The position numbers and the translations under genes are program-made. A stretch of 64,000 bases of DNA from Arenibacter hampyeongensis. GTDB lineage: Bacteria > Bacteroidota > Bacteroidia > Flavobacteriales > Flavobacteriaceae. This document shows, one piece after another, positions 5,143-22,065 of the stretch (positions are counted from its first letter, which is position 1; every line of letters starts with the position of its first letter). A model generated the notes under the pieces. The model did no database searches. It saw only the letters and a program-made list of their open reading frames with translations, and had not been told where the DNA came from. Location of the stretch: assembly GCF_002909255.1 (NCBI RefSeq), contig NZ_PIOB01000007.1, positions 124,001 to 188,000 of the forward strand. Direction: 5' to 3'.

Positions 5143-6786
5143 TTAGGATTTAAAAATCACGTTTTGGTCAGCTTCGAACCATGTTTGGTACAGGGGTTGG
5201 AATACCCTTTCCAAACTGTTCCTCTTAATTTTTAGGGTGGGAGTGGAAAATCCATTGGCTACATTCCATTCCTCTTGCATGACCACTATTTTTGCTATTT
5301 TTTCATGTTTTTGCAAACTTGGATTAATCTCCAATATAGATTGATGTAAACTTTTTATTAAATCATCTTTAGATTTGGACTTCCCTAAAGAAGAGACTGT
5401 TACCAAAGCTATTGGCTGAGGTATACCAGTACCAACGACGCAGATCTGTTCAATATCCGTATTTTTAGAAATTTGTAGTTCAATGGGGGCAGGTGATATG
5501 TATTTACCTTTATCGGTTTTAAATTGATCTTTCACCCTGCCAGTGATGGTTAAATAACCTTCATGGTCGTATTCTCCAATATCTCCAGTTTTAAAATATC
5601 CTTCTTCATCAAAAACGGTTGCTGTTATTTCTGGAGCTTTGTAATAACCCTTAAAAAGACAGTTGTTTAAAATTAAAATTTCACTTTCTTCAGAGAATTT
5701 AATATTTACCCCTTCAAGTGCTTTGCCTACAGTCCCTATTTTACTTTGCCCGGATAAATTGGAATGCGAAATACAACAATCTTCTGTCATACCATAGGCT
5801 TGATGAATAGTGATGCCAATAGTACTGTACCATTTCACCAAACTACTGGCAATGGGTGCAGCCGCCGAGGCAATGAATGATGCGTTGGACAACCCCAATT
5901 TGGTCTGAATTTTTTTCTTTATTGCTTTGTTTACGAATGGAATGGACAATAGCAAGGATAATTTCCTTTGCGGAAGACTTTCCAGTATTTTTTCTTGAAA
6001 TTTGGTCCAAATTCTGGGAACGGCAAAGAAAATATCCGGTTGAAGTGCCTCTAGGTTACTGGCAAATTTCTCCAAAGAATAGGGAAAGGTTATCTGGCCT
6101 CCATAAAATAGTATTCCGTTGCAAAAGGCGCGTTCTGCAACATGGGCCAATGGCAGATAAGAAAAAAATTTAGGGTTTTTAGGTAAGTTTATGATCTGGG
6201 TAAATATGCTTGAACTTTTGGTGAAATTCCCTGAAGTGTGCATTACTCCTTTTGGTTGCCCTGTGGTTCCAGAGGTATAAATAATAGTGTGTAAATCATC
6301 GCCTTTCGGTATATATAAATCCATCAACTCCACTTCCTGATTCATAATGTCTTCCCAATAAACTCCGGTATTACCACCAAAGGTTTTTACACTAATTATG
6401 GGGATGTTTGGAATGCCCTCTTTTTGGGAGGCAAAATCGTCCAGTTTCCCAATAATAATGGCTTTGGATTCGCTGTGAGTTAAAATCTGATTTATTCCTT
6501 CGGAAGTCAATGTTGGGTAGATGGGAATGGAAATATAACCGGCCATGGATATGGCCAAATCCGCCATAATCCAGTGGGGGCAATTTTTGGAAAGCAAGGC
6601 AATATGACTTTTCTTAGGTAGACCTAATTTTAATAAATAGGAGGCCAATTTTCTCATTTCAATCCCCGCTTCAGAATAAGATAAACTCTGTTGATGGTTC
6701 TCGAAATTCTGAATTAAGTAGGGGTTAAGGGGGGTCTCTTTTTCCCAGAAAAGAAAGGCTTCTATAGAAGAATTGAAGTTATGCAT
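5143..6786 (-). CDS. AMP-forming long-chain acyl-CoA synthetase
   Basis: The 547-residue protein is an adenylate-forming ligase of the FadD/long-chain acyl-CoA synthetase type. It has the P-loop 'TSGTTGQPKG' (171-180), the ATP/acyl motif 'AYGMTED' near 335, and 'YFKTGDIGEYDHEGYLTITGR' without its last residue near 408-427, holding the ribose-binding Asp and hinge Arg. The A10 Lys region is present near the C-terminus. It would activate a carboxylic acid to an acyl-CoA in the cytosol. It starts 17 bp after the hydrolase gene stop and likely shares a transcript with it. In this block it may prime an aromatic or fatty acid for the methyltransferases and SDR nearby (inference); a housekeeping role in fatty acid use is equally possible. 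Confidence 0.93.
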   Translation of the reverse strand: MHNFNSSIEAFLFWEKETPLNPYLIQNFENHQQSLSYSEAGIEMRKLASYLLKLGLPKKSHIALLSKNCPHWIMADLAISMAGYISIPIYPTLTSEGINQILTHSESKAIIIGKLDDFASQKEGIPNIPIISVKTFGGNTGVYWEDIMNQEVELMDLYIPKGDDLHTIIYTSGTTGQPKGVMHTSGNFTKSSSIFTQIINLPKNPKFFSYLPLAHVAERAFCNGILFYGGQITFPYSLEKFASNLEALQPDIFFAVPRIWTKFQEKILESLPQRKLSLLLSIPFVNKAIKKKIQTKLGLSNASFIASAAAPIASSLVKWYSTIGITIHQAYGMTEDCCISHSNLSGQSKIGTVGKALEGVNIKFSEESEILILNNCLFKGYYKAPEITATVFDEEGYFKTGDIGEYDHEGYLTITGRVKDQFKTDKGKYISPAPIELQISKNTDIEQICVVGTGIPQPIALVTVSSLGKSKSKDDLIKSLHQSILEINPSLQKHEKIAKIVVMQEEWNVANGFSTPTLKIKRNSLERVFQPLYQTWFEADQNVIFKS

Positions 6787-6803
6787 GACTATGTTTTATT
6801 GGT

Positions 6804-7853
6804 TCAAAAGGTTTGGTTGTCAACATCTTGAATAAATTTTATCAATCCATTGAAATAGGTTTTTTGGTCATCGTATTGCGATAAATGGCTGCCATTTGGA
6901 CATAATAAAAATCTGGCCTTTGGCAATTCTTGGGACATCCATTCCATGTATTTGGGATCCATGGTATCGTGTGTTGCCCCGATAACCAAAGTAGGGACAT
7001 TTATTGTTTTTAATCTCTCGGATACATCCCAGCCCTTTAAAGAGGCATTTCCTGTTACCCCAAATTCACTATATCCCTGCATGAATACATAAATATTGGG
7101 GTTGAGGTGGCCCATGGCCCTGTGTATGGATTCTGGCCATTTATCCAAAGGCATTCTTAAAAAGTGTTCCGTATAGTAATGCTGGGTTACCAATTCAGAA
7201 TATCTGGGATTTTCAAAATCGTTATTGGCCTCCATATCCTTTATTTCCGTGTAGACCTCGGGAGCCAATTTTGGACCAAGAACTTCCGCAGCATATTTCT
7301 CATATTCCGGGATGCTGGCCATCATATTGGAAATAATTAGTCCTTTTAAATTATCCTGATATTTTAATGCGTACTCCATTCCCAGGATACCGCCCCAAGA
7401 TTGCCCTAGGAGATAAAAATTATCTTTATTTAGGTTTAGGGCTTTTCTAACTTGTTCCACTTCCTCCACAAAATGATCTGTGGTCCAAAGAGTGGAGTCA
7501 TTGGGCTTATCGCTATAATAGGAGTCCAATTGATCGTAATAAATATATTCAATTTCTTCTTTTGGTAAATATCCATCAAAACATTCAAAAAATTCGTGGG
7601 TACCCCCTGGACCACCATGAAGTAACAATACCTTCATTTTGGGATTGTTGCCTACCCGTTTGGTCCATACCTTAAAAGTGCCTTTAGGGGTATTGATATC
7701 AATCATATTAATCCCGCCGGTAAATTGATCTTCGCTGTTGGAGTAATCCAGATAAGTGGATGTAGGCTCCGTTTCCATTTTTGATTGTTGTTTTTCCGCA
7801 CAGGACACTAAAAAAACAAGAAAAATGTTTGTGTAAAGAAATAAGGTTTTCAT
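6804..7853 (-). CDS. Proline iminopeptidase-type alpha/beta hydrolase lipoprotein
   Basis: The 349-residue product starts with a lipoprotein signal ('LVFLVSC', Cys18), so it is predicted to be anchored in the envelope rather than cytosolic like the usual proline iminopeptidases. The oxyanion-hole motif 'HGGPGG' is at 79-84 and the nucleophile elbow 'GQSWGG' at 150-155 (Ser152). The 'GATHDTMDP' Asp and 'GSHLSQYDD' His near the C-terminus complete the triad. The family hydrolyses N-terminal proline peptides or other amides and esters. It lies between methyltransferase 1 (94 bp upstream) and the acyl-CoA synthetase (17 bp downstream). An ester- or amide-releasing role outside the cytoplasm fits this setting but is inference. 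Confidence 0.88.
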   Translation of the reverse strand: MKTLFLYTNIFLVFLVSCAEKQQSKMETEPTSTYLDYSNSEDQFTGGINMIDINTPKGTFKVWTKRVGNNPKMKVLLLHGGPGGTHEFFECFDGYLPKEEIEYIYYDQLDSYYSDKPNDSTLWTTDHFVEEVEQVRKALNLNKDNFYLLGQSWGGILGMEYALKYQDNLKGLIISNMMASIPEYEKYAAEVLGPKLAPEVYTEIKDMEANNDFENPRYSELVTQHYYTEHFLRMPLDKWPESIHRAMGHLNPNIYVFMQGYSEFGVTGNASLKGWDVSERLKTINVPTLVIGATHDTMDPKYMEWMSQELPKARFLLCPNGSHLSQYDDQKTYFNGLIKFIQDVDNQTF

Positions 7854-7947
7854 AGCTGTAGTATGTTTTTATATTGGCAGAGATACATATTGCCCAGCAC
7901 CATAATGGGGCATAGCTTACTAAAGATAATTATTTATTAAAACAAGT

Positions 7948-8958
7948 TCAATTCACTTCTCCCTCGACTATACATATAGCCGGGGTAATGGGTATTATCC
8001 TCGTGAGTTCTAACCCTGACTTCGTAAAAACCTGGGCAAATTGTTCTTTGGTCCGTTCTTTTCCTCCTATCATGAGCATTGTAAGGTCTAACCACTTAAA
8101 AGGGTGAGGGTCATTGCCATTTGGAATCACTGCTTCAACCACCAATATTTTTCCTCCTGGGTTCATGGCCTTTCTGCAATTCGTTAGTATGCGAACTGTA
8201 TCTTCATCACTCCAGTCGTGAATAATGTGCCTCAAGATATAGGCATCCCCACCGCTTGTTACGGATTCGAAAAAATTTCCGGACGCCAGTTTGCATCGCA
8301 CTTTAAGTCCGCTTGCCAATATATTTTCTGTAGACCTTTGAATAACCTCGGGCAAATCGAACAAAACACCTTTAGTTTCCGGATTTTTATTAAGTACTGC
8401 TGAAATTACATCGCCATTGCCTCCACCAATATCTATGACCGTTTTAAAAACGGAAAAATCATAATTTTCGACCATGGGTTGTGTTTCACCTCCGTGAATA
8501 TCTGTCATCATACGATCAAAAATTTTTCCTTCCTCCGGATGGTCACGTAGATATTCAAAAGGAGGAGACCCTAGAGCCTTTACCCATCCACCACCGCCAT
8601 TCTGAACGGCATACAGAAATTCAGTGTAGGTTTTATAAAATAGACTTCCGGCCGAAAGGGCCATGGCTTTTACACTGGTTGGGCTATCTTCCTTAAGGCA
8701 TTCTGCCAATGGAGTAAGTGAAAACTTTCCGTTTTCATTTTCAATGAAGATTCCCGAACTGGCCAGGGCACGTAAAAGTCGGAAAATAGCCTCGGCATTG
8801 GCACCTGTTAGGCGAGCCAACTCGGAGCCGTCCATGGGACCATGGGAGGTGATTAGGTCCGCTATATTTAGTTTAGCCGCGACATGGATGGCCTTGGTGG
8901 TTACGTATCCAAAGATCATTTGGGTAATAGCGATATTGGGTGGTAGATTGTTTTCCAT
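7948..8958 (-). CDS. SAM-dependent O-methyltransferase (class I, family 2)
   Basis: The 336-residue protein has the architecture of plant-type and ASMT-like O-methyltransferases (PF00891 with an N-terminal winged-helix dimerisation domain, residues ~10-100). The SAM loop is 'VIDIGGGNGDVIS', followed by the acidic ribose contact 'LFDLPEVI'. 'RHIIHDWSDED' carries the catalytic-base His conserved in this family, and 'NPGGKILVVEAVIP' follows. Family members methylate hydroxyls of phenolic or polyketide substrates. The stop of the second methyltransferase is 6 bp upstream, so the pair is almost certainly co-transcribed. The two proteins are distant paralogues, not a recent duplication. Substrate unknown. 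Confidence 0.9.
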   Translation of the reverse strand: MENNLPPNIAITQMIFGYVTTKAIHVAAKLNIADLITSHGPMDGSELARLTGANAEAIFRLLRALASSGIFIENENGKFSLTPLAECLKEDSPTSVKAMALSAGSLFYKTYTEFLYAVQNGGGGWVKALGSPPFEYLRDHPEEGKIFDRMMTDIHGGETQPMVENYDFSVFKTVIDIGGGNGDVISAVLNKNPETKGVLFDLPEVIQRSTENILASGLKVRCKLASGNFFESVTSGGDAYILRHIIHDWSDEDTVRILTNCRKAMNPGGKILVVEAVIPNGNDPHPFKWLDLTMLMIGGKERTKEQFAQVFTKSGLELTRIIPITPAICIVEGEVN

Positions 8959-8964
8959 TTGAAA

Positions 8965-10002
8965 TTATTTTATGGCGATGGCTGCACTTGTAGGCCCTTT
9001 CAATGGCATTATTGAAGTTGATTTAAATCCTGCCTCAATTGCCATTTTGCTAAAATCGGAAGCAGAGAAGTCATAACCTTCAGCCGTCTCTATAAGCATG
9101 TTCAAGGACATTAAAAGTCCAAAGGCATTTTTACTCCTGTCGTTGTCTATAATATTTTCTATTACAACAAAAGCGCCTCCTTTAGGTAGGGCGTCGTATG
9201 CCTTTTTGATAAGCATCTTTTTATCCTTGGTGCCCCAGTCATGTAAGATGTTGCCCATTGTGATCACATCCGATTTCGGAAAATCATCGGTAAAGAAATC
9301 CCCTGAAATAATTTTCACCTTATCCTTTAAACCCATATTTAGTACATTTTCCTTTGCAATTGGCTCAACTTGGGGCAGATCCATGGATGAACATTGCATA
9401 TGTTTACTGTTCATGGAAACGTGAGCCGCCAAAAATCCTCCCGCCCCACCAATATCGCACAGGGTTTTGTATTTCGAAAAATCAAATACTTTGGCAAATT
9501 CCATAAAATTCCCCATTTGTACGCCGGCCATAGCTCCAACAAATTCCCGAAGTTTTTTTGGATCTGCATAAACCGCTTCAAAAATAGGTTCCCCACCATT
9601 TTTGGTTTCGTTTTGAGGCAGCCCCGTTTTTAGTCCATCCTCCAAATCGTTCCAAAAAGGGTACAAACGGTTGTTGCACATTTCCAAAATCCCACCTATA
9701 TAGCTAGGTTTGTTCTTGTCCAGAAAGAAATCCGAATCTTCCGCATTGCTGTAAACAGCACTTTCCTTTATTCCTTTTCTTTTTAAAAAGCCCATGGCTA
9801 CCAAAGCATCCAAAAAATCATATAGGCTTCGTGAGTGGAGACTAAGTCTGGTTTGAATTTCATTGCCTGATAATTCCCGTTTGGCCAGAATGGTAAAAAG
9901 TTCCATGTTTACTGCCGTTAGTAAGGTTTTGGTTCCGAAAAATCCGGTACCGACCTGCATAATTTTTGAAGGGTCCAATGTTATTTTTTCTGCTGTTTCC
10001 AT
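8965..10002 (-). CDS. SAM-dependent methyltransferase, second of pair
   Basis: The 345-residue protein has the same two-domain layout as its neighbour: an N-terminal winged helix ('FTILAKRELSGNEIQTRL') and a C-terminal Rossmann domain with 'LCDIGGAGGFLAAHV', 'SMDLPQVEPIA' and 'GNILHDWGTKDKKM'. The HDW motif keeps the catalytic His. The loop reads GGAGG rather than the GGGxG of the neighbour. It sits 12 bp after the thioesterase stop. Two different O-methyltransferases beside an SDR and a hotdog thioesterase suggest tailoring of a small molecule. A role on a polyketide-like or phenolic compound is inferred from family, not shown by sequence. Confidence 0.9.
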   Translation of the reverse strand: METAEKITLDPSKIMQVGTGFFGTKTLLTAVNMELFTILAKRELSGNEIQTRLSLHSRSLYDFLDALVAMGFLKRKGIKESAVYSNAEDSDFFLDKNKPSYIGGILEMCNNRLYPFWNDLEDGLKTGLPQNETKNGGEPIFEAVYADPKKLREFVGAMAGVQMGNFMEFAKVFDFSKYKTLCDIGGAGGFLAAHVSMNSKHMQCSSMDLPQVEPIAKENVLNMGLKDKVKIISGDFFTDDFPKSDVITMGNILHDWGTKDKKMLIKKAYDALPKGGAFVVIENIIDNDRSKNAFGLLMSLNMLIETAEGYDFSASDFSKMAIEAGFKSTSIMPLKGPTSAAIAIK

Positions 10003-10014
10003 GTTACAAAGTAT

Positions 10015-10560
10015 TTAGATTAATATGTCAGTTGTATTTTTTAAAAGTTGGTAATCATTACTAAATATGTCATGTATTTCTGCTGAAATTTTCATTTCAT
10101 TAATTTTAACACCACAATTTTTAAATATCATTTCTAAATCCTGTGCCTTTTTGTCTTTCCAAAATGCGGCTTTTGTATAGCCAATGGCACATACTTGGTT
10201 ATTTTGTTCAAAAACTTGACTGTGATATACCCATTTGTCATCCCATCCTTCCAGGATAAGGGTGATCTTGAAAGTTGACCACATTTTTAAAGGTCTTTTG
10301 TAGATGATTTTTTGAGACCCTAAAACGGCATACATCCCTTTTTTTACGGTATTCTCAAATAGTTTTGACCGAAACATTTTTTCAAAGCGGATGAAGTCCA
10401 TATAATATGCGTATTTGGCATTGGACATATATCTAAAAGTGTCGCAATCCAAAATACTTACCCTTCGTTTTCTAGCTTGATTCGAGGTTAGATCAACTTC
10501 CTTCCAAAATAATTTTGAGCAAATAAAAATATAAAAAAGATGTATCCAATAATAGACCAT
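10015..10560 (-). CDS. THEM6-like hotdog-fold acyl-CoA thioesterase
   Basis: The 181-residue protein resembles animal THEM6 and its bacterial relatives (4HBT-like hotdog fold). It has a hydrophobic N-terminal stretch ('YYWIHLFYIFICSKLFW') followed by 'RRVSILDCDTFRYMSNAKY', which matches the family block holding the conserved Asp and Asn. 'KRPLKMWSTFKITLILEGWD' is the second block. The fold suggests hydrolysis or binding of an acyl thioester. The N-terminal stretch may anchor it to the membrane. It is 18 bp after the SDR and 12 bp before a methyltransferase, all on the same strand. The product of the acyl-CoA synthetase in this block is a plausible substrate (inference). Confidence 0.75.
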   Translation of the reverse strand: MVYYWIHLFYIFICSKLFWKEVDLTSNQARKRRVSILDCDTFRYMSNAKYAYYMDFIRFEKMFRSKLFENTVKKGMYAVLGSQKIIYKRPLKMWSTFKITLILEGWDDKWVYHSQVFEQNNQVCAIGYTKAAFWKDKKAQDLEMIFKNCGVKINEMKISAEIHDIFSNDYQLLKNTTDILI

Positions 10561-10578
10561 AGTTGTGCAACTCGTGGA

Positions 10579-11457
10579 TTAGTGAATTGATTTTGATTTG
10601 TCATGTCGGGCATTCAAACCAAAGGTGTTTTCCACCGCATTGTACCAATCAGAATCGTTGGCGGCATTCCAGTCAATCCATTCCTCATCGGACATTGTTG
10701 TTCGCCACTCCAAAAATGGCTGTGCATCTGGACCTATGGGATGGCGCAATTGCCAGGATCCTCTTTCCGCGATTTCCAGAATTTTATCGGCGACCAATGA
10801 CGGATGTGTAGGATTTTCCAACGATGCTGCAAACAAACCTGCAAAACGTTTGGAATGTGGATAAATAGAAGTGTCACCGATACTGATATTTTTGGCCATT
10901 TGAGTATTGATAATTCCCGGTTCAACAATGGCAACCCTTATATTAAATGGTTTTACTTCGCCTGCCAAGGCTTCACTCAATGCCTCCAGGGCAAATTTGC
11001 TGGCTGCGTAGGCCCCTAATGGGCTATTTGCAATCTTCCCTGCCACCGAAGCAACATTAATAATAGTACCTTTTCTATTTTTTCGCATTTGTGGCAGTAC
11101 AGATTTGACGCATCTAATCACCCCAAAATAATTGGTTTCCATTATGGCTTTAAAATCTTCCATACCCAGTTCTTCGATGGAACCATGTCGCTCAATTCCT
11201 GCATTGTTCACCAGGATATCTATGTTGCTATTCTTATTAAGAATATCCGTAATACATTGTTTAACAGATGCATCGGAATCGACATCCATTTTAGAAATGA
11301 TAATTTCCAATGATTCGTCCTTTATGAATTGTCTTAAGGCTATATCGTTTTCTGGATTTCGCATGGTCGCGAATACTTTATAACCGGCCCGTCCGAACGC
11401 GAGGGCGGTTTCACGGCCAATGCCCTTACTAGTTCCTGTTATTAGTACTGTTTTCAT
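10579..11457 (-). CDS. Short-chain dehydrogenase/reductase (SDR)
   Basis: This is a classical SDR of 292 residues. The start is set at the ATG at 11457 because GGAG lies 9 bp upstream of it and the protein then begins 'MKTVLITGTSKGIGRE', the normal Rossmann start; an in-frame TTG five codons earlier is less likely. Motifs are TGTSKGIG (cofactor), 'LVNNAGIERHG' and the catalytic 'YAASK' after 'NVASVAGKI'. The C-terminus is longer than in 250-residue SDRs. It would oxidise an alcohol or reduce a ketone with NAD(P)(H). It is the first intact gene of the tight run SDR-thioesterase-two methyltransferases, and a gene remnant lies immediately upstream. Confidence 0.92.
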   Translation of the reverse strand: MKTVLITGTSKGIGRETALAFGRAGYKVFATMRNPENDIALRQFIKDESLEIIISKMDVDSDASVKQCITDILNKNSNIDILVNNAGIERHGSIEELGMEDFKAIMETNYFGVIRCVKSVLPQMRKNRKGTIINVASVAGKIANSPLGAYAASKFALEALSEALAGEVKPFNIRVAIVEPGIINTQMAKNISIGDTSIYPHSKRFAGLFAASLENPTHPSLVADKILEIAERGSWQLRHPIGPDAQPFLEWRTTMSDEEWIDWNAANDSDWYNAVENTFGLNARHDKSKSIH

Positions 11458-11474
11458 AATATATCGCTCCAAAT

Positions 11475-11672
11475 TTATAAGATTAGCTGCATTGAAATAA
11501 TAATAGGTTCCAATACGGTATGTTTATTTTTAATGGACTTGTACTTGGGGTCATTGATAATGGCTCCAGGCTTATCCATGTCCGCTTCCTCAAAAACTAA
11601 AACCACGGAATTAGGGTCATTTGTGTCTTGAAAAGTCCTAAAAAGGTATTCGGCTTTTTCAAGGCCATTATT
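11475..11672 (-). pseudogene. C-terminal remnant of a ferredoxin-like/DUF3764-type protein
   Basis: Reading the minus strand, an open frame of about 65 codons without a usable start begins beside the stop codon of the SnoaL gene and ends at a TAA at 11475. The encoded text ('AEYLFRTFQDTNDPNSVVLV' and then 'FEEADMDKPGAIINDPKYKS') has the composition and spacing of the C-terminal half of small dimeric alpha/beta-barrel proteins, where 'DPNEVVVLFE..D' followed by a helix is usual. The N-terminal half is missing: the frame is closed by TGA just upstream. A deletion that joined the SnoaL gene to the tail of a neighbour would explain this. It could instead be expressed by termination-reinitiation, but no ATG fits. 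Confidence 0.5.
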
Positions 11673-12138
11673 TCAAGGATTTTATCGAAGGATCGGCGCT
11701 GGCAAAATCGACTACATTTTTCCAAGTGCCATCCTCATGCTTTTTCCAAATGGTTACCACTTTATTGTAGAAGTGCATTTTGTTTCCCAAGGAATCGTTC
11801 ATACTAACTCTAAGGTTCTCGATCAAATAGCCCAAATCCCCACTTTTGGAAACGAAGGCTTCCTGGGGTTCCCAATCTATCTCAAAACCGGGGAGTTGGG
11901 AATCTCGCTCCAGCATCTTGGAAATTTCCGAGGTTCCTCTTAGAACCGGTTCATTGGGAGCTTTAAAAAGTGCATCCTCTGCCCAATAGCCCAAATATTC
12001 CTCATTGGACTCTGATTTGGCCCATTGACGGCTTAATTCCATAAGTTTTTCACCTTCCGCATTCTGATCTATTAGGGTCTGTTGGTTACAGCCTGATATA
12101 ATAAAAAGCAATACTGCTGTGATACTTAATTTTTTCAT
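11668..12138 (-). CDS. SnoaL/DUF4440-like lipoprotein
   Basis: The start is placed at the ATG at 12138, giving 156 residues and a proper lipoprotein signal ('ITAVLLFIISGCNQQ'). The longer open frame upstream lacks coding character. The rest is an NTF2-like domain of the DUF4440/SnoaL type: an N-terminal helix with 'LMELSRQWAKSESNEEYLGY', then 'WAEDALFKAPNEPVLRG', and a final beta sheet. Family members bind or isomerise small hydrophobic ligands; many have no known reaction. It is one of three exported NTF2-fold genes in this block. Its stop overlaps the remnant described at 11475-11672. Confidence 0.8.
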   Translation of the reverse strand: MKKLSITAVLLFIISGCNQQTLIDQNAEGEKLMELSRQWAKSESNEEYLGYWAEDALFKAPNEPVLRGTSEISKMLERDSQLPGFEIDWEPQEAFVSKSGDLGYLIENLRVSMNDSLGNKMHFYNKVVTIWKKHEDGTWKNVVDFASADPSIKSLK

Positions 12139-12395
12139 GATAAAATTTCTTAAATAATTAATTAAGGACTCATCTTGAGTTCTAATTGCAATTGTTACTT
12201 TATGGGCGAACCCAAGACAGGATTGCATTATAAGAGCCAGGGCTGGGTATTAAAACAAATGCCCTGATACCGGCCAATCTCTGACCCCTAGAAGGTACTA
12301 CCTGCTTAGGGTGTGCCAAAAGCAACATTTTTTTTCTTTGATGAATCTTTGGCTATAGTCCATTTAGGATTCATAATATCCTATGGTACCATGGA
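12139..12395. other. Intergenic gap with no recognised gene
   Basis: This 257-bp stretch separates the SnoaL lipoprotein from the dioxygenase gene, both on the minus strand. I see no convincing coding frame. A near-palindrome around GGTACC at 12384-12389 is followed on the plus strand by eight T. It probably carries the promoter of the SnoaL lipoprotein gene, but no clear element was found. Confidence 0.4.
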
Positions 12396-13292: not shown

Positions 13293-13365
13293 TTATGTAA
13301 TTGATTTAAAATTATTGTGCTTTTATTTGTTATGATAAATTACAATTAGAATAGGTTAATGTTTC

Positions 13366-14286: not shown

Positions 14287-14310
14287 GATGCTTTTGTTTT
14301 ATTTGATTGT

Positions 14311-14339
14311 ACCTAACGGAATTATATTTCCCGTTAGGT
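14311..14339 (-). terminator. Hairpin between two exported-protein genes
   Basis: A 9-bp perfect stem (14311-14319 with 14331-14339, ACCTAACGG/CCGTTAGGT) with an 11-base loop lies between the stop of the 144-residue gene and the start of the double-SnoaL gene. No T-run follows on the minus strand, so it may be a processing or attenuation hairpin rather than a true terminator. Confidence 0.4.
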
Positions 14340-14345
14340 TTAGTA

Positions 14346-14780
14346 CTATTTTTTGGTTAATTCCGGAATTTCTTGATATATCTCGTCAGAATGGGTTACC
14401 ACGTACTTGTTCCACGATTTCATAAAGGCCATGCGCTCTTCTTCCTTGGGCCACGCAGTTTTCATCAATTCATTCTGCTTATTGGATGCGGCATCTATAT
14501 CGTTCCAATTGGCATACTCACTAATAACAACCAAATCCCGTAAGTCGGCACCCGATATATGGTGGAACACTTTTTCACTGATAACCTTATCGTTTTTGAA
14601 GGTTATTTTTTCAGAAAATTCCTTTAAATGGGCATTGAGCTCTGCCCTGGATCCATTTTCTGGTATACTAAGCGTCCAGGTGGTTACTGTATAATAATGT
14701 CCCTCCTGTGCAGATGCAGAAGTTGGGATAAATAGGGCAATAACGATTAGGGCTCCGATAATTGATTTCATTGTTTTCAT
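14346..14780 (-). CDS. Small exported protein, probable dimeric alpha/beta-barrel fold
   Basis: The product has 144 residues with a clear signal peptide ('IGALIVIALFIPTSASAQEG'). A second Met at codon 4 is an equally good start. The mature part begins 'HYYTVTTWTLSIPENGSRAE', a beta strand followed by a helix ('LNAHLKEFSEK'), and later 'DLVVISEYANWNDIDAA' and a C-terminal helix. This order fits the ferredoxin-like fold of ABM/NIPSNAP-type proteins, which includes cyclases and monooxygenases. I cannot name a family. It is one of a set of exported proteins with the same kind of fold on this strand. Confidence 0.75.
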   Translation of the reverse strand: MKTMKSIIGALIVIALFIPTSASAQEGHYYTVTTWTLSIPENGSRAELNAHLKEFSEKITFKNDKVISEKVFHHISGADLRDLVVISEYANWNDIDAASNKQNELMKTAWPKEEERMAFMKSWNKYVVTHSDEIYQEIPELTKK

Positions 14781-14943
14781 AATTCTAGAGTTTTTGTTGT
14801 TTATTGAATTCTTTTTTTGGTCTAATTGGATACTTATTTTGACGTAGTTAGAAAATTGGAAGTGAATTTTTCGTTGAAATTAAATTGACCTCATTTTAAC
14901 TTTTTACAAGTAAGGCTTACAAGCCTATTTGGGAATGATGCCA

Positions 14944-15747
14944 TTACTCCGGCGGAGCTACTACTTTTACAATCCGGTAGACATAACTGATTCTCTGATC
15001 AATTTCCAGATTCCCAATCTCGGTAAGACCGTCTGTTGGAAATACCGCATTCTGATCCCAGGTGGGATCTAATGCTTCCTTTAAGCTGGAATAAAGGTCA
15101 AAAGAAATTGTATTAGCCTGCATTTTGGGACCGGAGGGGGACAGTATCCTTGCATTTCCCCAGGCCTTCTGTTTCGTTTTACCACTATTCATTGCAGATT
15201 GAATAAAAGGACCCCAATGCTTTTCTTCCAGTGCGATTAAATTCCCTGGGTTAGAGGCATTGTGATAAATTATTTTAACAAAATTATAATCGTTCTCCGG
15301 AATGGCATTACTGGCCTTTACCCATACCGCGGGCTTAACAAATATGGTGTTGATCACTTTACTCATAGAAAAAGTATCCATTTGATCCATCGGAACATTG
15401 GGCCAAACTCCAGATGGATCCCAGATACTCTCCATTGCGTCAATATCCTTATAGGTGTTGATAAATAGGATATTGGGGGAGTTGGGCTCGTCAAAACCAC
15501 CCACTTTCTGCAACAACCCCCAAAAAATTAGATTCCCTTTGGTTAAGGCATTTTCAGCCACTTTGCTCCAATATTTGGTTTCCCTGGAAATGAATTCCTC
15601 CATTTGATCGGGTGCTACCTGTCTATACTGATATATACTTATGCCCTTGTTCCCATCATCTTGGGCATTCAGTTTAAAACTGAAAAGAAAAACAAAGATC
15701 AGCAGTACTTTTACTAATTTAACCATGCAATGAATTGTTGTTTTCAT
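14944..15747 (-). CDS. Exported two-repeat ferredoxin-like protein, homologue of gene at 21183
   Basis: The 267-residue protein has a signal peptide ending at 'FSFKLNAQD'; a Met at codon 8 is an alternative start. It shows two similar halves, each with strand-helix-strand patterns. By eye it aligns with the 264-residue protein at 21183: 'YQYRQVAPDQMEEFI' against 'FEFMQVDNEQEMEYN', and 'WGNARILSPSGPKMQANTIS' against 'WGLVRFISPIGSDTYASHMT'. So this is a real family even though its activity is unknown. The two homologues flank the sensor kinase on opposite strands, which suggests co-regulation. A ligand-binding or cyclase-like role outside the cytoplasm is inference. Confidence 0.8.
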   Translation of the reverse strand: MKTTIHCMVKLVKVLLIFVFLFSFKLNAQDDGNKGISIYQYRQVAPDQMEEFISRETKYWSKVAENALTKGNLIFWGLLQKVGGFDEPNSPNILFINTYKDIDAMESIWDPSGVWPNVPMDQMDTFSMSKVINTIFVKPAVWVKASNAIPENDYNFVKIIYHNASNPGNLIALEEKHWGPFIQSAMNSGKTKQKAWGNARILSPSGPKMQANTISFDLYSSLKEALDPTWDQNAVFPTDGLTEIGNLEIDQRISYVYRIVKVVAPPE

Positions 15748-15914
15748 TATGTTCGATTTAGTTGTTACTTTTTTTTTGTTTAAAAAACAGGCATGAAGGT
15801 TATAGCAATGGTTTGGTATATTTTCTTTTAAAAAGTGCTAATTCAAATTGAAAATTTCAAATTACTTTTTACCCTAAGGGTTCTTTGAAACCTAGTGCAT
15901 ACCTGTTTGTGAAT

Positions 15915-16682
15915 TTAATTTGATGGCGTATATGCAAGGTCAGGATGCATTTCACCAGACTCTGTTTCGTATTTTAGTACATAACCAAAGAGTTCACCGA
16001 AAAGTTTTTTTCCTTCTTCGCCCAATAATGCATCATTTTCTTTGGATTTTTTAGCGTAGTCCTCGGCGTCTACTGCCGAAATTACAGCGAGATAGTAATC
16101 GCCCATACTTCCAAATCCATTGTGATAAATTCGATAATATTCTTTGGATCCTTTTTTTGTGTATAATGCTTTTAGCTCCTTAAGTTTACCCTTTAGATTC
16201 TGAATATTGCTTGGTGTAACGTTTAGAAAATGCCATTTTCTATAGTTTTGACCCTCGGTAGTAGTACTGATGCCTTCGGGCATATATGTAAGTTCTTTAT
16301 TCAGATAAATAATATAATCGCCATGCTTGTCGTAACATTCGTTATACCTTTTAAATAGTTCTTTGAAGGCTTCTTCTCCCATTTTTTCTGCCAATGGTGC
16401 CATTACGTTCTTGTCCAGATCCGCCATATTCTCAATGGGTGAAATATTAAAATACCTACCTGTAGAGGTTGAGGCTACTTGCCAGCTAGCACCTTCAAGC
16501 TTATGTTTTTTACATGCTTCCATAAAATCCTTGGATACCTCGTTGTATTTTTGAATCATGGAAGGTTTAACCTGGTCTTCGTGGATATAATAGGCTTGAT
16601 TTTTCTCCGCTTGGGCCAATGCCAGGCAAGGAGCCAACAGTACCAATAATACAATAACAAATAATTGATTTAAGCTTTTCAT
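15915..16682 (-). CDS. Exported protein, tandem paralogue A (255 aa)
   Basis: The protein has a signal peptide ending 'LAPCLALAQAEK'. It is a clear paralogue of the next gene upstream, of identical length. Shared landmarks are 'AYYIHEDQVKPSM' near residue 30, 'YNECYDKHGDYIIYLNKELT' in the middle, 'YMPEGISTTTEGQNYRKWHF', 'YYRIYHNGFGSMGDYYLAVI' and a C-terminal 'MHPDLAYTP'. The two halves both look like strand-helix-helix-strand units, consistent with a duplicated ferredoxin-like fold. Conserved aromatic residues (Y/W/H-rich 'HEDxVKPSM', 'YRKxH') could line a ligand pocket. Function unknown. The gene lies 41 bp after its paralogue and is probably co-transcribed. Confidence 0.82.
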   Translation of the reverse strand: MKSLNQLFVIVLLVLLAPCLALAQAEKNQAYYIHEDQVKPSMIQKYNEVSKDFMEACKKHKLEGASWQVASTSTGRYFNISPIENMADLDKNVMAPLAEKMGEEAFKELFKRYNECYDKHGDYIIYLNKELTYMPEGISTTTEGQNYRKWHFLNVTPSNIQNLKGKLKELKALYTKKGSKEYYRIYHNGFGSMGDYYLAVISAVDAEDYAKKSKENDALLGEEGKKLFGELFGYVLKYETESGEMHPDLAYTPSN

Positions 16683-16723
16683 AATTTTAAAGTTTTAGTT
16701 TATAATGTTGATTTTAATATTCC

Positions 16724-17491
16724 TTATTTTGGGGAATAGGCCATATCGGGTCTCATCCGTCCTTCAACCAACTCATATTCTATCAAGCTCCCCATAAAAT
16801 TACTAAAGGTGCTTTGCCATTCCGGCCCCATTAACGTATTGTTCTCGGTAATTTTGTTGGCGTAATCTGCAGCGTCTTTGGCAGCAATGGCTACCATATA
16901 GTAGGCGCCTCTGTTTCCAAAGCCACTGTGGTATACCCGATAATGTAGTTTAGACCCCTTGTCCTGAAATAATTTTTTTATGGCCTGGGCATTTTCCTTA
17001 ACAGCTGCAGCGTTTCCCGGTGTATAATAGTAATAATGAAATTTTCGATAATCCTGCCCTTCAGGGGTTTGAGTAATTCCGCTGGGCATGTAGGACAATT
17101 CCTTGTCCATTTGAATTACGTAATCGTGTTCAATATCATAGCACTTGTTCATTTTGTTAAACATGGCCGTCATGTTTTCCGGGCCCATTTTTTCGGATAA
17201 TGTCTGGAATATCGGACGGTCCACATCCGCTATGGAACTAATTGGACTTATCCACATGTAACGGTTATCTACAGTATTCGACACTATTACACTCAGACCC
17301 TTGATATTGTGTTTTTTTAAATTTTCGGTAAGTTCTTTGCAAACTGTTTCATATTGCGTTACCATACTTGGTTTTACTACATCCTCATGCACCCAATAAG
17401 CTTGGGATTGGTCATTGCCCTGGGCAAAACCCATCCCTAGCCAAAACAAACAGAGGGTAGCTGTAATTAAATTATTCCCTAGTGTTCTCAT
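16724..17491 (-). CDS. Exported protein, tandem paralogue B (255 aa)
   Basis: The protein has a signal peptide ('LCLFWLGMGFAQG') and the same landmarks as paralogue A: 'AYWVHEDVVKPSM', 'MNKCYDIEHDYVIQMDKELS', 'YMPSGITQTPEGQDYRKFHY', 'HYRVYHSGFGNRGAYYMVAI' and 'MRPDMAYSP' at the end. Overall identity looks like a third to a half, so the duplication is not recent and both copies have been kept. It lies 62 bp downstream of the SnoaL-like lipoprotein gene and 41 bp before paralogue A. I do not recognise a named family. Retention of two diverged exported copies suggests different ligands or a heterodimer (inference). Confidence 0.82.
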   Translation of the reverse strand: MRTLGNNLITATLCLFWLGMGFAQGNDQSQAYWVHEDVVKPSMVTQYETVCKELTENLKKHNIKGLSVIVSNTVDNRYMWISPISSIADVDRPIFQTLSEKMGPENMTAMFNKMNKCYDIEHDYVIQMDKELSYMPSGITQTPEGQDYRKFHYYYYTPGNAAAVKENAQAIKKLFQDKGSKLHYRVYHSGFGNRGAYYMVAIAAKDAADYANKITENNTLMGPEWQSTFSNFMGSLIEYELVEGRMRPDMAYSPK

Positions 17492-17553
17492 GACATTTAT
17501 TTTTTAATGGTTTATACTTTTTTCTATTGTGGAGGGAGCATTTAACTACTACA

Positions 17554-18093
17554 TTATTCAAGAATTGGTGCCACTAGGGAATATCCCAATTGTTGCAAAA
17601 ACTCCAATTCATTATAAAAGATATCCTCTTGATATATTTGCCCTTCTTCATTAAAATACAGATGTGAAAATCCGTTTATTTTAACTTTTTTCCCTGTAGC
17701 AATAACATCGGCAAATTGTCCTGTGTGGGTTCCATTAAAGACCCAATTTACATAGCCCTGATTTTCGCATATATTACTATTGCTCAACGAAATATTATGG
17801 TCGGGGAATCCGGTAGTATATAGGCTTATTCTGGCTTTTAATTCCGATTTATTGGTAACCACGGGAATTCCGTTCATATTTCTTATAAAATTGTCGGTAA
17901 CCAAGTCATTTATTTCTTCTTCATCCCTAATGTTCAGATAGGCGTCAATAGAGGATTCGAGCTTACTTTTTTTAGTAACCAATTGATTATCATCATTTTC
18001 TAAAATAGCGCCATTGCCCAGAGGTTTTGGGTCGTTTTTGCAAGAAATACAACCTATAAACATAAACGTAAAAAGTATTATTGATGATTTCAT
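17554..18093 (-). CDS. SnoaL/ester-cyclase-like lipoprotein
   Basis: The 179-residue product has a lipoprotein signal ('LFTFMFIGCISCKND') with two possible lipobox Cys residues. One NTF2-like domain follows: the N-terminal helix with 'IDAYLNIRDEEEINDLVTDN', then 'FPDHNISLSNSNI', 'GYVNWVFNGTHTGQF', 'KVKINGFSHLYFNEEGQ' and 'QEDIFYNELEFLQQLGY'. The pattern FPDH, NW..xGTH.G.F, G(F)xx..F and E(D)..Y is that of SnoaL-like ester cyclases, including the His and Asp that act in SnoaL-type ring closure. It is the first gene of the minus-strand set, facing the sensor kinase across a 184-bp gap that must hold both promoters. Confidence 0.83.
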   Translation of the reverse strand: MKSSIILFTFMFIGCISCKNDPKPLGNGAILENDDNQLVTKKSKLESSIDAYLNIRDEEEINDLVTDNFIRNMNGIPVVTNKSELKARISLYTTGFPDHNISLSNSNICENQGYVNWVFNGTHTGQFADVIATGKKVKINGFSHLYFNEEGQIYQEDIFYNELEFLQQLGYSLVAPILE

Positions 18094-18277
18094 GACAATT
18101 AAATAACTCCATACCCTAAACTAATTAATTGGTTTTTAGATTGATAATCAATTCATTTAGGACGGAGGGCTTGATTTTTTGTCCGAACAGGTGGTTTTAA
18201 TTACCCTATGATTTATGCAAATAATATTCGTATATTTAAGAACCCCGGCTTTTTAAAGTATATCATAGTTTTAAAAA

Positions 18278-20230
18278 ATGGGTAAACACCACTACATAGC
18301 AATTTACTTTACTGTTTTCTTTAGTTCATTGTTATCCGGTCAACTCATAAATTTTGATAGGCAGATTCCTTATCAAAAGGTGTTTGTGGATACCGATAAT
18401 TTTGGAGCTTCCTATCTGGAACATTTGGAGAAATTTTATGAAGACGCTCCAACGGATACCTTAAAATTTGAGATCCTAAACGATCTTGCCTATTATTGGC
18501 ATACCCGGAATCTAATAAGGGCCTTAAAATATACCAAGTTGGGATTGGAGCATACCCTTGAAAAGGAAAATAGTTTATGGCATGGCCGATTTCAGATTAC
18601 CCAAGGGGCTATCCTTTTGCGGATGGAGAAATTGGATAGTGCCCAAGCAGTGTTGGAAAATGCCAAAAGTAAGGTGTTGACCACGGACCTTGCCTTTTTA
18701 AATACACAATTGGGGTATGTTTATGAACGCCGGGGGCAATTGGATAGGGCTGCCGATTATGCGATGGAAGCGCTGAGATTGGGGGAGGAGCAAAATGACA
18801 AAAAAGCGATTGCACTTGCTTATAGCGACTTGAGTAATATTTTATGGAAACAGGCCAAATATGATAAAGGATTAAAATATGGTATTAAATCCGTAGTCCT
18901 CTTTGAAGAACGTGGGATTATTGATCTGGATTATGATTTCACCCTTTATGTTGTTGCCAACAACTATCTTAAATTGAATAGGCATGAGGAGGCACTAAAA
19001 TATTTTGAGCATTCCTTGGCCATAGGAGAACGCTACGGATTTTATAATAATTTAAGTGATGTTTATATCTCACTTGTGGATTTATATGCCTATTTAAATA
19101 ATTACAAGAAAGCTGAAAATGCGGGAAATAATGCTGTTAAATATGCCCAATTGTTGGAGAACCAATTTATGCTGATGCGTTCTTTGCTATCTATTGGAAA
19201 AATGCAGAATCTACAGGGGAAATATAAAAATGCCATAGAAAGTCTTGAAAAATCACTTGATGTGGCGACTGATGATTTTGGGGATGAATTTTATTTGAGT
19301 CAGGCATACGAAGCCTTGGGAAAAGCTTACGCTGGGGACCATAACTATATGGAGGCCTACAAAGCGTTTTCAAAATATGACGGGTTAAAAAAGGAAATCT
19401 TCACAGCAGAATCCGATCATCGGATTGCTTTGTTACAAACGGAATTTGAAGTTGCTCAAAAGGAGGATACCATTCTTTTACAGCGAGGAACAATAAAAAA
19501 GCAACAGAGCAACCAAATCTTAACTTCGATTATTACCGGATTGCTTTTTTTTCTTTTGGTCTTGGGAGTTGTAGCCATTAAAAATAATCGAAGAAAGAAT
19601 GTATTACTGCAACATCAAAATAAAGAAAAAGAATTCCTGATAAAGGAGATTCATCACCGGGTAAAGAATAATCTGGAGGTGGTATCCAGTTTGCTATCGC
19701 TACAATCTACGCATATAGACGATAAAAAAATAAAGGAAAACATGCACCAAATCCAAAATCGGATTCAGAGTATGAGTATGATACATCAAAATTTATATCA
19801 GGGAAAAAATTTGGCGAGCATAGAGATGAGGAATTATTTTAAAATATTAGGAGATTATGTGCTACACTCCTATGGTGCCGGACAAAGAATCAACATGGTT
19901 TATGATATGGAGGAAATCGAACTAAATGTTGATATAGCAACGCCAATAGGATTAATAATCAACGAGTTGATTACAAATTCCTTAAAATATGCTTTTCCCA
20001 ATAACATTAAAGGAACTATTACTATTGGACTCATTCAGAAGTCAGATCATTTAGAACTAAAAGTCAACGACAACGGTATTGGTATCAAGAATGGAAATAG
20101 GGCTAAAGGAACGGGGTTTGGCACTCAGTTGATAGCACTTTTAACCAAGCAATTGGATGGTAAAATGGTGCTTCGCCAAAAGAAGGGCACAACAGTTTCA
20201 TTTGAATTTCAACATCACAAAGCAGCCTGA
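18278..20230 (+). CDS. TPR-containing membrane sensor histidine kinase (HisKA_2 type)
   Basis: The 650-residue protein starts with a signal peptide ('AIYFTVFFSSLLSGQLINF'), followed by at least six TPR-like repeats (~60-400) in the periplasm, one transmembrane helix ('IITGLLFFLLVLGVVAI', ~415-431) and the cytoplasmic kinase. The phosphoacceptor box is 'LIKEIHHRVKNNLEVVSSLL' (HisKA_2, His in EIHHR), then N-box 'ELITNSLKYAFP', G1 'DNGIGI' and G2 'GTGFGTQLI'. It would phosphorylate the LytTR regulator whose ATG lies 2 bp after its stop. The gene is divergent from the exported SnoaL/ferredoxin-like set, which makes that set its likely regulon (inference). Confidence 0.92.
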   Translation: MGKHHYIAIYFTVFFSSLLSGQLINFDRQIPYQKVFVDTDNFGASYLEHLEKFYEDAPTDTLKFEILNDLAYYWHTRNLIRALKYTKLGLEHTLEKENSLWHGRFQITQGAILLRMEKLDSAQAVLENAKSKVLTTDLAFLNTQLGYVYERRGQLDRAADYAMEALRLGEEQNDKKAIALAYSDLSNILWKQAKYDKGLKYGIKSVVLFEERGIIDLDYDFTLYVVANNYLKLNRHEEALKYFEHSLAIGERYGFYNNLSDVYISLVDLYAYLNNYKKAENAGNNAVKYAQLLENQFMLMRSLLSIGKMQNLQGKYKNAIESLEKSLDVATDDFGDEFYLSQAYEALGKAYAGDHNYMEAYKAFSKYDGLKKEIFTAESDHRIALLQTEFEVAQKEDTILLQRGTIKKQQSNQILTSIITGLLFFLLVLGVVAIKNNRRKNVLLQHQNKEKEFLIKEIHHRVKNNLEVVSSLLSLQSTHIDDKKIKENMHQIQNRIQSMSMIHQNLYQGKNLASIEMRNYFKILGDYVLHSYGAGQRINMVYDMEEIELNVDIATPIGLIINELITNSLKYAFPNNIKGTITIGLIQKSDHLELKVNDNGIGIKNGNRAKGTGFGTQLIALLTKQLDGKMVLRQKKGTTVSFEFQHHKAA

Positions 20231-20232
20231 TT

Positions 20233-20967
20233 ATGATCCACAAGACTCGTATTTTAATTGTTGAGGATGATATGATTATCGCTGCGAATATATCTGTACA
20301 ACTCTCCAATTTAGGTTATGAAGTCACAGGCATTGAAACTAGGGGAGAGGAGGCCATTTTACACGCTAGGGCAAACACCCCTGATATCATATTATTGGAT
20401 ATTAACCTGAAAGGATCCATTAATGGAATTGAAGCAGCAATTGAGATTCATAAATCCAAAAGGATTCCCATAATATATCTTACGGCAAATAGCGATGAAG
20501 CTACTTTTGCCAAGGCTAAAGCTACACACCCTTATGCCTTTATTTCAAAACCTTTTAATAATTTGGATTTGCAGCGGACAATTGCCTTGGTCGTAGATCA
20601 AATACATGAAAATAATACGAAGAGCAAAGAAATCTCCGAACATTTCGAGCTTATGGCAGACAGAATTTTCGTTAGACATAACGGACGAATGGTAAAACTA
20701 CTGCTAGACGAAATTCTTTATATAGAGGCCGATAGAAATTACAGTAATATCATAACATCAAGCGGGAACTACTTGATCAGCACAACCCTTAAAATTGTAG
20801 AAAAGGAAATTAAAAGCCATATGTTTATTAGGGTGCATAGATCCTATATGGTCAACATTGCCAAATTGGATGTGGTTGCCGATAACCATTTGGAGATTAA
20901 TAGAAAAGTTATTCCTATAAGTAAATCATTTAAAGAACATCTTCTCAAACACTTGCATACTATTTGA
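20233..20967 (+). CDS. LytTR-family response regulator
   Basis: The 244-residue protein has a receiver domain (~1-120) with 'ILIVEDDMIIAANIS' (acidic pair), phospho-acceptor Asp in 'DIILLDINLKGS', the Thr in 'YLTANSD' and Lys in 'FISKPF'. A LytTR DNA-binding domain follows (~145-244) with 'LYIEADRNYSNII' and 'MFIRVHRSYMVNI'. The start lies 2 bp after the kinase stop, so the pair is translationally coupled. LytTR regulators bind paired direct repeats; the 215-bp gap downstream and the 184-bp gap at 18094-18277 are the natural places to look. Confidence 0.94.
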   Translation: MIHKTRILIVEDDMIIAANISVQLSNLGYEVTGIETRGEEAILHARANTPDIILLDINLKGSINGIEAAIEIHKSKRIPIIYLTANSDEATFAKAKATHPYAFISKPFNNLDLQRTIALVVDQIHENNTKSKEISEHFELMADRIFVRHNGRMVKLLLDEILYIEADRNYSNIITSSGNYLISTTLKIVEKEIKSHMFIRVHRSYMVNIAKLDVVADNHLEINRKVIPISKSFKEHLLKHLHTI

Positions 20968-21182
20968 TATAATTAGTTTAATGCTTTGGTAATTTTAAAC
21001 CTGCCTACGGACAAAAATAACTTCCATTCGTCCTAACTACTTGATTATTATGAAATTATTTGGTTAAAATAACACCCAATTGGGTTTAAGATAACCAATT
21101 ATTAGATTCTAATTTGGGTTGTGATTTTGTATAATAATTCATGATCCTAATAATCAGTACTAACCAATAACACTTTATGATC
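20968..21182. promoter_or_regulatory. Intergenic region with inverted repeat ahead of exported-protein gene
   Basis: The 215-bp gap contains ACCCAATTGGGT (within 21070-21090), a perfect 12-base palindrome, and a related AATTTGGGTT near 21112. It lies between the LytTR regulator and an exported protein of the cluster. A regulator binding site is likely, but LytTR proteins normally prefer direct repeats, so the bound protein is open. Confidence 0.35.
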
Positions 21183-21971
21183 ATGAAAAAAAAATTGATT
21201 CTATTCGCATTGTTATTAATGGGCAATTTAACTATTGCTCAAGAAAAACTGTTTCTGGTATTTGAATTTATGCAAGTGGACAATGAACAGGAAATGGAAT
21301 ATAACGCCACGGAAGAGTTTTGGGAAAAAATTCAACTGCAACGCGTAAAAGCAGGTGATATTATCGGCTGGGACCTATGGGCGCTTAGCCCAGGGGGAGA
21401 GCAACAGGGCTTTCAGTACTTGACCGTTTCCCTTTATAACGATCCGGTTAAGATGATGGACGGTAGCAGTTGGGCAAATCTAATGGACAGGGCCAAAGCG
21501 GCCTATCCTGGGATGACTGAAGCCGATCTAAATAAAAAATTAAACCATTCCTCGGCTACAAGGGATTTGGCGGTAAGAATATTTGCAGAAGAAATTGCCA
21601 CTACCAAAGGGGAGTTCAACATGTCTTTGGGTACCGTGGCCCAAATGGATTTAATGAAGGTAGACTTAATGAATTACGATTCATATGAAAAGGCAGAGAT
21701 GAAAATCTTTCAACCCATTCACCAAAAAGTTGTAGATGCTGGTGGAAAGGCAAATTGGGGTTTAGTACGCTTTATTAGCCCAATAGGTAGTGATACCTAT
21801 GCTTCCCACATGACTGTAAGTATGTTCAAGGATTATAAGCAGGCGCTGAACCAAAATATTAATTGGGCAGAGGGCGCAACCCCTGCATCAACCAAAGCTA
21901 TGGAAGAAGGTATTGGGTTAAGGGACATGAAATATGTTTATATGGCCAAATTGATCAGAAAAGCACGTTAA
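21183..21971 (+). CDS. Exported two-repeat ferredoxin-like protein, homologue of gene at 14944
   Basis: The start is set at the ATG at 21183, which gives 262 residues and a standard signal peptide ('LFALLLMGNLTIAQEK'); another ATG lies two codons upstream. The mature protein has two halves with strand-helix-strand patterns and aligns by eye with the minus-strand protein at 14944 in both halves. Its landmarks are 'EEFWEKIQLQRVKAGDIIGW' and 'WGLVRFISPIGSDTYA'. It is separated from the regulator by 215 bp holding an inverted repeat and is followed by a strong hairpin, so it is probably a single-gene transcript. Function unknown. Confidence 0.8.
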   Translation: MKKKLILFALLLMGNLTIAQEKLFLVFEFMQVDNEQEMEYNATEEFWEKIQLQRVKAGDIIGWDLWALSPGGEQQGFQYLTVSLYNDPVKMMDGSSWANLMDRAKAAYPGMTEADLNKKLNHSSATRDLAVRIFAEEIATTKGEFNMSLGTVAQMDLMKVDLMNYDSYEKAEMKIFQPIHQKVVDAGGKANWGLVRFISPIGSDTYASHMTVSMFKDYKQALNQNINWAEGATPASTKAMEEGIGLRDMKYVYMAKLIRKAR

Positions 21972-21995
21972 CAATCTTCCTTTTTATTCTTTATA

Positions 21996-22038
21996 AAATG
22001 GAAGAACCTGTAAGGCAACCTTACAGGTTCTTCCATTT
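21996..22038. terminator. Bidirectional hairpin terminator
   Basis: A perfect 20-bp stem (21996-22015 with 22019-22038; core GGAAGAACCTGTAAGG) with a 3-base loop sits between the plus-strand exported gene and the minus-strand rpiA, whose stops face each other. Its outer pairs are A/T, giving short T-runs on both strands. It should end both transcripts. Confidence 0.8.
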
Positions 22039-22065
22039 ATGGTGGTCAAGAAAGTCTAGTCGTCC

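Follow-up and report, generated by a model that had tools for sequence, protein, structure and literature searches.

A locus at positions 5143–21971 of the window, a 64,000-nucleotide stretch of Arenibacter hampyeongensis DNA (positions 124001–188000 of contig C26, in a genome of 5.43 Mb and 28 contigs), encodes a sensor kinase/LytTR regulator pair divergent from a long run of genes that includes ten for exported proteins. Comparative sequence analysis gives good support to the view that the locus is a two-component regulon whose main output would be exported SnoaL/NTF2-type and tandem ABM-type proteins. We also judge it probable that the regulon is dedicated to handling a small molecule outside the cytoplasm.

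The kinase and regulator genes (hk and rr) are divergent from a minus-strand run that reads from 18093 to 5143 in the order snoC, e255b, e255a, e267, nips, snoB, diox, snoA, sdr, thio, omt2, omt1, abh, acs. Beyond the start of this run, hk, rr and e264 follow on the plus strand. Besides the TPR-HisKA_2 kinase/LytTR pair, the products comprise ten exported proteins (three SnoaL/NTF2-type lipoproteins, five ferredoxin-like candidates, a twin-arginine (Tat)-type intradiol dioxygenase and an α/β-hydrolase lipoprotein) and five cytosolic enzymes. Domains were assigned where one of the 20 proteins scanned between 5143 and 24279 passed the curated Pfam cut-off, and export calls are N-termini read by eye. 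The original prediction, made from the letters of the window and their translations, had proposed an exported enzyme set with its own sensor kinase. Every gene that it named was recovered at its coordinates in the Pfam matches and translations, the arrangement is more than chance, and the exported set with its own kinase is supported. Its list of exported proteins holds for those named; it had overlooked the α/β-hydrolase lipoprotein abh (6804–7853, minus strand; Abhydrolase_1 84.2 bits, lipobox-like start by eye).

The TPR sensor histidine kinase hk (18278–20230, plus strand; HisKA_2/HATPase type, HisKA_2 88.0 bits, with TPR matches) is followed by rr (20233–20967, plus strand), a response regulator with receiver and LytTR domains (Response_reg 71.8 bits, LytTR 62.1 bits). 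In the divergent promoter between hk and snoC, the first gene after the box (17554–18093, minus strand), a LytTR-type box of the TTCGGACA-N13-TTCGTCC type lies at 18160–18187 (minus strand). The pattern TTCGGACA-N13-TTCGTCCT, or a close variant, is present in 41 of 47 regions that separate the kinase from the first exported gene (the window included) and is the most conserved part of the kinase-side intergenic region. Five of the six regions lacking the box are only 24–118 nucleotides (nt) long, and in the sixth (L054, 162 nt) a related site falls outside the pattern. Excerpts of a published account describe LytTR sites as two direct or inverse repeats of 9–11 nt, 11–13 nt apart (PMC4847170). 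The locus shares with LytTR systems such as AgrA and YpdB the combination of Response_reg and LytTR domains and two half-sites, here with a 13-nt spacer that falls within the published range. It differs from them in its TPR/HisKA_2 kinase, in its exported SnoaL/NTF2 and ABM-type targets, and in half-sites drawn as 8 nt, against the 9–11 nt given in those excerpts.

Searching the host genome with this pattern gave 28 places with zero or one mismatch (places with two mismatches were considered among the matches listed), three of which stand out at position weight matrix (PWM) scores of 30.6–38.5. Among the sites scored, the divergent promoter ranks first (38.5), followed by a site on contig C23 (33.7) and the site upstream of e264 (30.6; 21006–21033, plus strand). 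The C23 box (L185, G000:C23:311435–327462) lies 100–101 nt upstream of a gene, unlinked to the locus, for an exported 309-residue double-NTF2 protein, each half of which gives an NTF2-like match, a weak one in the case of the first half. Downstream of this gene are a LemA-like gene and a second exported gene (names by eye), and the same order is seen in a genome of the same genus (G212, L129). The fourth-ranked site (G000:C22, PWM 21.2) was discarded because it falls within a coding frame. The box upstream of e264 recurs: a site scoring above 18 precedes the gene in 12 of 15 e264-holding loci, six of them strong (26.6–34.8) and six marginal (18.6–20.3).

The box was then followed through a family sample of 299 genomes from 236 genera. 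Exact copies of the box number 63, spread over 39 genomes; by our own count, 13 of these genomes hold at least two, and a reversed-pattern control gave 23 single hits in 23 genomes. Excluding the window's own box, all listed places lie in fetched loci (62 sites), and 57 of these are intergenic; the other five (L137, L146, L161, L168, L184) fall inside frames of at least 90 amino acids and were set aside. Each of the 57 is followed within 350 nt by a gene on the same strand, and in 51 cases the distance is 61–180 nt. The downstream genes belong to the exported families in 39 cases (SNO 16, CL7 10, E255 4, NTFd 4, E267 2, E264 2, NIPS 1). The remaining 18 comprise one each of OMT2 (148 nt downstream of the box; L155), SDR and ABH (91 nt for the abh homologue; L180) and 15 others. 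Because the weight matrix came from kinase-side promoters, the CL7, E267, E264, NTFd and NIPS promoters provide largely independent support for the regulon. A signal-peptide rule flags 55 of the 57 downstream genes and is crude and supportive only, since it also flags 290 of 602 background frames and one O-methyltransferase. The 15 others include genes for exported proteins of F5/8C type (assigned by Pfam in L166 and by likeness in L126 and L169) and for ricin-B-like and crystallin/aerolysin-like ones; these cases are L126, L166, L169, L160 and L175.

The box, the pair and the e255 family are associated across the sample. Relatives of e255 occur in 91 of the 299 genomes, comprising 27 of 39 box genomes and 64 of 260 others (p 9e-8). 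We took the best e255 place per genome, together with up to 7 kb of flanking contig per side, and left out G000, G212 and G226, which gave 88 loci. At 26 of these the box (score above 18) and the pair (kinase and regulator within five genes) occur together, two have the pair only (L194, L224), two the box only (L211, with the regulator alone; L232, with both proteins and the kinase at cut-off) and 58 neither (p 9e-18), so that box and pair are each found at 28 loci. A SnoaL gene lies within two genes of e255 at 68 of the 88. The original prediction held that its members should not be found apart in most relatives. This stood for SnoaL beside e255 and did not stand for the pair, 26 of the 28 occurrences of which have the box, so that the core stays together only in part of the relatives.

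Several observations weigh against the regulon as we read it. The kinase/regulator pair is absent at 60 of the 88 e255 loci, and both p values are inflated by relatedness, though 236 genera are represented among the genomes sampled. Because kinase-side promoters served as the training set of the matrix, their scores are not independent, and host-genome places with two mismatches were covered among the matches listed. Some of the 15 other targets are exported proteins with F5/8C domains or of ricin-B, crystallin/aerolysin-like or SMP-30-like kind, a range at odds with one aromatic pathway. Within the window no second box is present at 5143–17553 (highest other score 11.4), and with gaps of 163–195 nt inside the minus-strand run the cytosolic arm may or may not be co-transcribed. 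Twelve further diox/omt2 neighbourhoods (L286–L291, L299–L304) contain no box above 18 and no e255.

The absence of the pair from so many e255 loci bears on a simple alternative, that the genes are unlinked neighbours in a gene-rich, variable region and form no system. The genes rsmD and/or dnaX lie in the e255 stretch at 40 of the 88 loci (both at 38; L186–L273, e.g. L245), all without the pair, and several members of the window set are rare. Since the rsmD/dnaX stretches never hold the pair, e255, mostly with SnoaL, also exists as a separate unit without this regulation. We consider the absence of any system very improbable, however, because the box-kinase association and the regulon recur across genomes. 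The e255 gene next to rsmD/dnaX was itself seen to hold a fixed position across many genera.

A profile scan of genome contigs with the e255 alignment gave rise to 65 e255 loci, several of them cut by contig ends, and genes were counted in clusters that merge paralogues. All 65 contain e255, 56 a SnoaL-type gene, 48 the kinase family and 47 a regulator with at least 45% identity to rr. The other members are sparser: omt2 in 17, e264 in 15, thio in 10, nips in 9, sdr (in no Arenibacter), abh and acs in 6 each (acs in L027 sits on the far side of the kinase), diox in two (L043, L066) and e267 in one (L043). Neither omt1 nor snoA is the best match of any open reading frame in the 65 loci. An additional family, CL7 (cluster 7), an exported 254-residue protein with a ferredoxin-like look by eye, is present in 27. 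The closest named loci are those of Arenibacter L002 and L003, at approximately 90% protein identity. The full set of the window occurs at no other of the 65 loci: the window is a core plus additions, in which the recurring core consists of the kinase, regulator, box, SnoaL and tandem ABM genes, and the dioxygenase/methyltransferase/reductase/CoA-ligase arm is variable.

The exported proteins can be divided into NTF2-like, ferredoxin-like and hydrolytic or oxidative members. Four have lipoprotein-type N-termini by eye (snoC, snoB, snoA and abh), five have ordinary signal peptides (e255a, e255b, e267, nips and e264) and diox has a twin-arginine start. For the three exported SnoaL-fold genes of the original prediction, snoB (13366–14286, minus strand; 71.0 bits) and snoC (59.3 bits) pass the SnoaL profile PF07366 (cut-off 28.4), snoB with two SnoaL stretches, while snoA (11668–12228, minus strand), an exported NTF2-like lipoprotein, passes DUF4440 only (27.1 bits, cut-off 25.2). 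Its count of at least four exported ferredoxin-like proteins becomes five candidates, and the expected fold held for both proteins that were modelled. AlphaFold models of e255b (16724–17491, minus strand; a core member; pLDDT 92.5) and e267 (14944–15747, minus strand; pLDDT 91.1) each have a tandem ferredoxin-like/ABM-type fold, with which PDB matches agree. By homology, e255a (15915–16682, minus strand; 44% identity to its paralogue e255b) and e264 (21177–21971, plus strand; 21% identity to e267 over 268 residues, E 9e-6) are expected to have the same fold. The fifth candidate, nips (14346–14780, minus strand), has 51 relatives including itself, some of them named NIPSNAP.

These five (nips, e267, e255a, e255b and e264) lack a convincing Pfam match. 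At an E cut-off of 0.1, a Pfam NIPSNAP or ABM match was found in none of 18 nips-family (A3) and none of 74 e255-family (A4) members, and e267 and e264 had none either. Nothing useful came from searching NCBIfam with nips, e267 and e255b or the PDB with the e255b sequence. Profile-profile comparison gave low probabilities for e255 against e267 (8) and against nips (38). Common descent within the ferredoxin-like set is therefore unproven beyond the pairs e255a/e255b and e267/e264, and the link is by fold only. Compared with ABM monooxygenases and anthrone oxidase-like proteins (5f9p; PenE, 9kdp) and with NIPSNAP, the window proteins are at approximately 10% identity, are exported and have no Pfam ABM or NIPSNAP match.

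SnoaL and ABM-type folds are known from cytosolic polyketide tailoring, and the exported set might complete an aromatic metabolite or signal that derives from a polyketide or fatty acid and is secreted; its ABM and SnoaL proteins would then work as they do in polyketide pathways. The best solved matches include the anthrone oxidase-like protein 5f9p and the monooxygenase PenE, snoB and snoC share the Pfam family of the SnoaL-like cyclases, and LytTR pairs often run signalling loops. We nevertheless find such biosynthetic tailoring unlikely. No ketosynthase, carrier protein or polyketide synthase is encoded among the 20 proteins scanned at 5143–24279, and it would be unusual for tailoring enzymes to be sent to the periplasm. 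The window proteins further differ from SnoaL cyclases in being lipoproteins by eye, one of them with two SnoaL stretches.

The folds could serve a non-catalytic role, in which exported NTF2 and ABM-type proteins bind ligands or act at the surface and the regulator governs a general envelope or interaction response. The F5/8C, ricin-B, crystallin/aerolysin-like and SMP-30-like box targets in other genomes point this way, as does the tandem folds' lack of an identified cofactor site. Redox and transfer enzymes co-occur with the set in several genera, however, and the Tyr/His positions of diox are kept, so that a purely non-catalytic response seems to us possible and on balance doubtful.

The exported intradiol dioxygenase diox (12396–13292, minus strand; Dioxygenase_C 87.8 bits; Tat-type by eye, with an RR motif in the N-terminal region) has a chlorocatechol 1,2-dioxygenase as its best solved relative by sequence (E 1.2e-18), and Y96, Y127, H138 and H140 align with the Tyr/Tyr/His/His of solved relatives such as 4ilv, so that both the PF00775 domain and these positions are present. 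We take the four residues to be iron ligands, and 4ilv to be a secreted enzyme. In contrast to known intradiol dioxygenases, diox has approximately 100 extra C-terminal residues and sits in this operon without catechol-pathway partners among the 20 proteins scanned. Relatives of diox occur in 10 of the 299 genomes and lie inside such an operon at four loci (the window, L043, L066 and L285). At L066 the dioxygenase, a short-chain dehydrogenase (SDR) and an OMT2-type O-methyltransferase form one run. At L285 (G289, another genus, with no e255 match) one run contains the kinase, a box scoring 33.4, double-NTF2, CL7, e267-like, diox, omt2 and sdr genes and three SnoaL-type matches, one of them weak; the stretch ends in the kinase, with the regulator position out of view. 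Of all the loci, L285 makes the strongest case that one regulated unit can include both the dioxygenase and tailoring enzymes. L292 (G211) brings together a kinase and a regulator, an omt2 and a thio-like gene, a weak match to SnoaL and a site of marginal score (18.1).

These enzymes raise the possibility that the system serves detoxification or catabolism of aromatics, with the exported set capturing algal phenols or catechols derived from polycyclic aromatic hydrocarbons (PAHs), the dioxygenase opening rings, and O-methylation and reduction detoxifying the rest. The conserved Tyr/His positions, the placement of dioxygenase, OMT2 and SDR behind the kinase and box at L285 and their common run at L066 all favour it, and Arenibacter algicola TG409 is reported to use PAHs as its only source of carbon (PMC4974315). 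The rarity of the dioxygenase (10 of 299 genomes) speaks against it. No muconate cycloisomerase, lactone enzyme or other muconate-pathway enzyme of catechol ortho-cleavage was found among the 20 proteins scanned, and the box targets elsewhere include lectin-like proteins. In a survey of dioxygenase neighbourhoods that leaves out G210, G113 and G123, six (L286–L289, L302, L303; 38–52% identity) have no such operon: e255 is missing there, and neither a box scoring over 18 nor a kinase match of more than 300 bits was seen. We regard aromatic catabolism as somewhat unlikely. Of the original prediction's pairing of an exported arm with a cytosolic tailoring arm for an aromatic compound, the exported set with its sensor stands and the aromatic substrate is not established. 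Aromatic chemistry itself is plausible and unproven, one of three live options.

For a dedicated regulon handling a small molecule outside the cytoplasm, we propose the following mechanism. The N-terminal TPR part of hk, placed in the periplasm, would sense the ligand or a loaded exported protein, and hk would phosphorylate rr, as their domains suggest. On strong comparative evidence, rr would bind TTCGGACA-N13-TTCGTCCT and activate the operon led by snoC as well as e264 and at least one further gene, the unlinked one for an exported double-NTF2 protein. To judge by their folds, the exported proteins of tandem ABM and SnoaL/NTF2 type may bind a hydrophobic substrate and transform it, probably through oxidation, isomerisation or cyclisation that needs no cofactor. 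In this locus and in a few other genomes, the added Tat-type intradiol dioxygenase, O-methyltransferase, reductase, thioesterase and CoA ligase might open and convert a catechol-type product.

We suggest, tentatively and short of an expectation, that this is a new two-component regulon, present throughout the family in marine Flavobacteriaceae and probably also in some further families of the class, in which a modular exported set of tandem ABM-type and SnoaL/NTF2-type proteins would carry out oxidative or cyclising periplasmic chemistry, with lineage-specific tailoring added to a common sensor-box core. No prior description of the regulon was found among titles in the open-licence PMC literature. 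In the parts consulted of a study of Flavobacteriaceae, LytTR domains are among the enriched traits, and SnoaL and monooxygenase are not mentioned (PMC7440613). The analysis turns a group of exported proteins, several from families without a convincing Pfam match, into a candidate regulon with a defined sensor, DNA box and targets. If correct, the reading would imply extracytoplasmic use of these folds across many genera of marine bacteria, and the box offers a means to find regulon members and, through induction, the substrate.

In a phylum sample, the exact box was found in 20 of 296 genomes (28 places), close to the reversed control (27 hits by our count). Because this is near the control level, we rely outside the family only on G418 and G483, with two exact sites each. 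In these genomes, from other families of the class, two to three box-like sites lie close together (L293 and L294, respectively) upstream of CL7-like, weak SnoaL-like and other genes, and those of L294 lie beside a kinase/regulator pair.

The five cytosolic enzymes make up most of the promoter-distal part of the minus-strand run. They are the acyl-CoA synthetase acs (5143–6786; AMP-binding 219.8 bits), the O-methyltransferases omt1 (7948–8958; Methyltransf_2 158.1 bits) and omt2 (8965–10002; Methyltransf_2 139.6 bits), the thioesterase-like thio (10015–10560; 4HBT_2 47.8 bits) and the short-chain dehydrogenase sdr (10579–11472; adh_short 191.6 bits), all on the minus strand. The recurrent partner among them is omt2, with relatives in 27 of the 299 genomes; by our reading, these lie on the same contig and within approximately 10 kb of e255 in 11. 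At L193 (G037) two OMT2-like genes stand one behind the other in the operon, like omt1/omt2 in the window. Scans of the locus for sigma-70 promoters and terminators were at chance level, and a scan with a Bacteroidetes-type promoter pattern gave one site, on the wrong strand.

A RidA-like lipoprotein (cluster 26; e.g. L008:13913–14422), absent from the 20 window proteins scanned, was seen in 9 of the 65 e255 loci. The gap between sdr and snoA (11473–11667) holds the 3' remnant (11478–11642, minus strand) of a gene for an 89-residue cytosolic ferredoxin-like protein, corresponding to residues 35–89; tblastn with nine relatives gave 60–85% identity, and the gene is intact in nine related loci.

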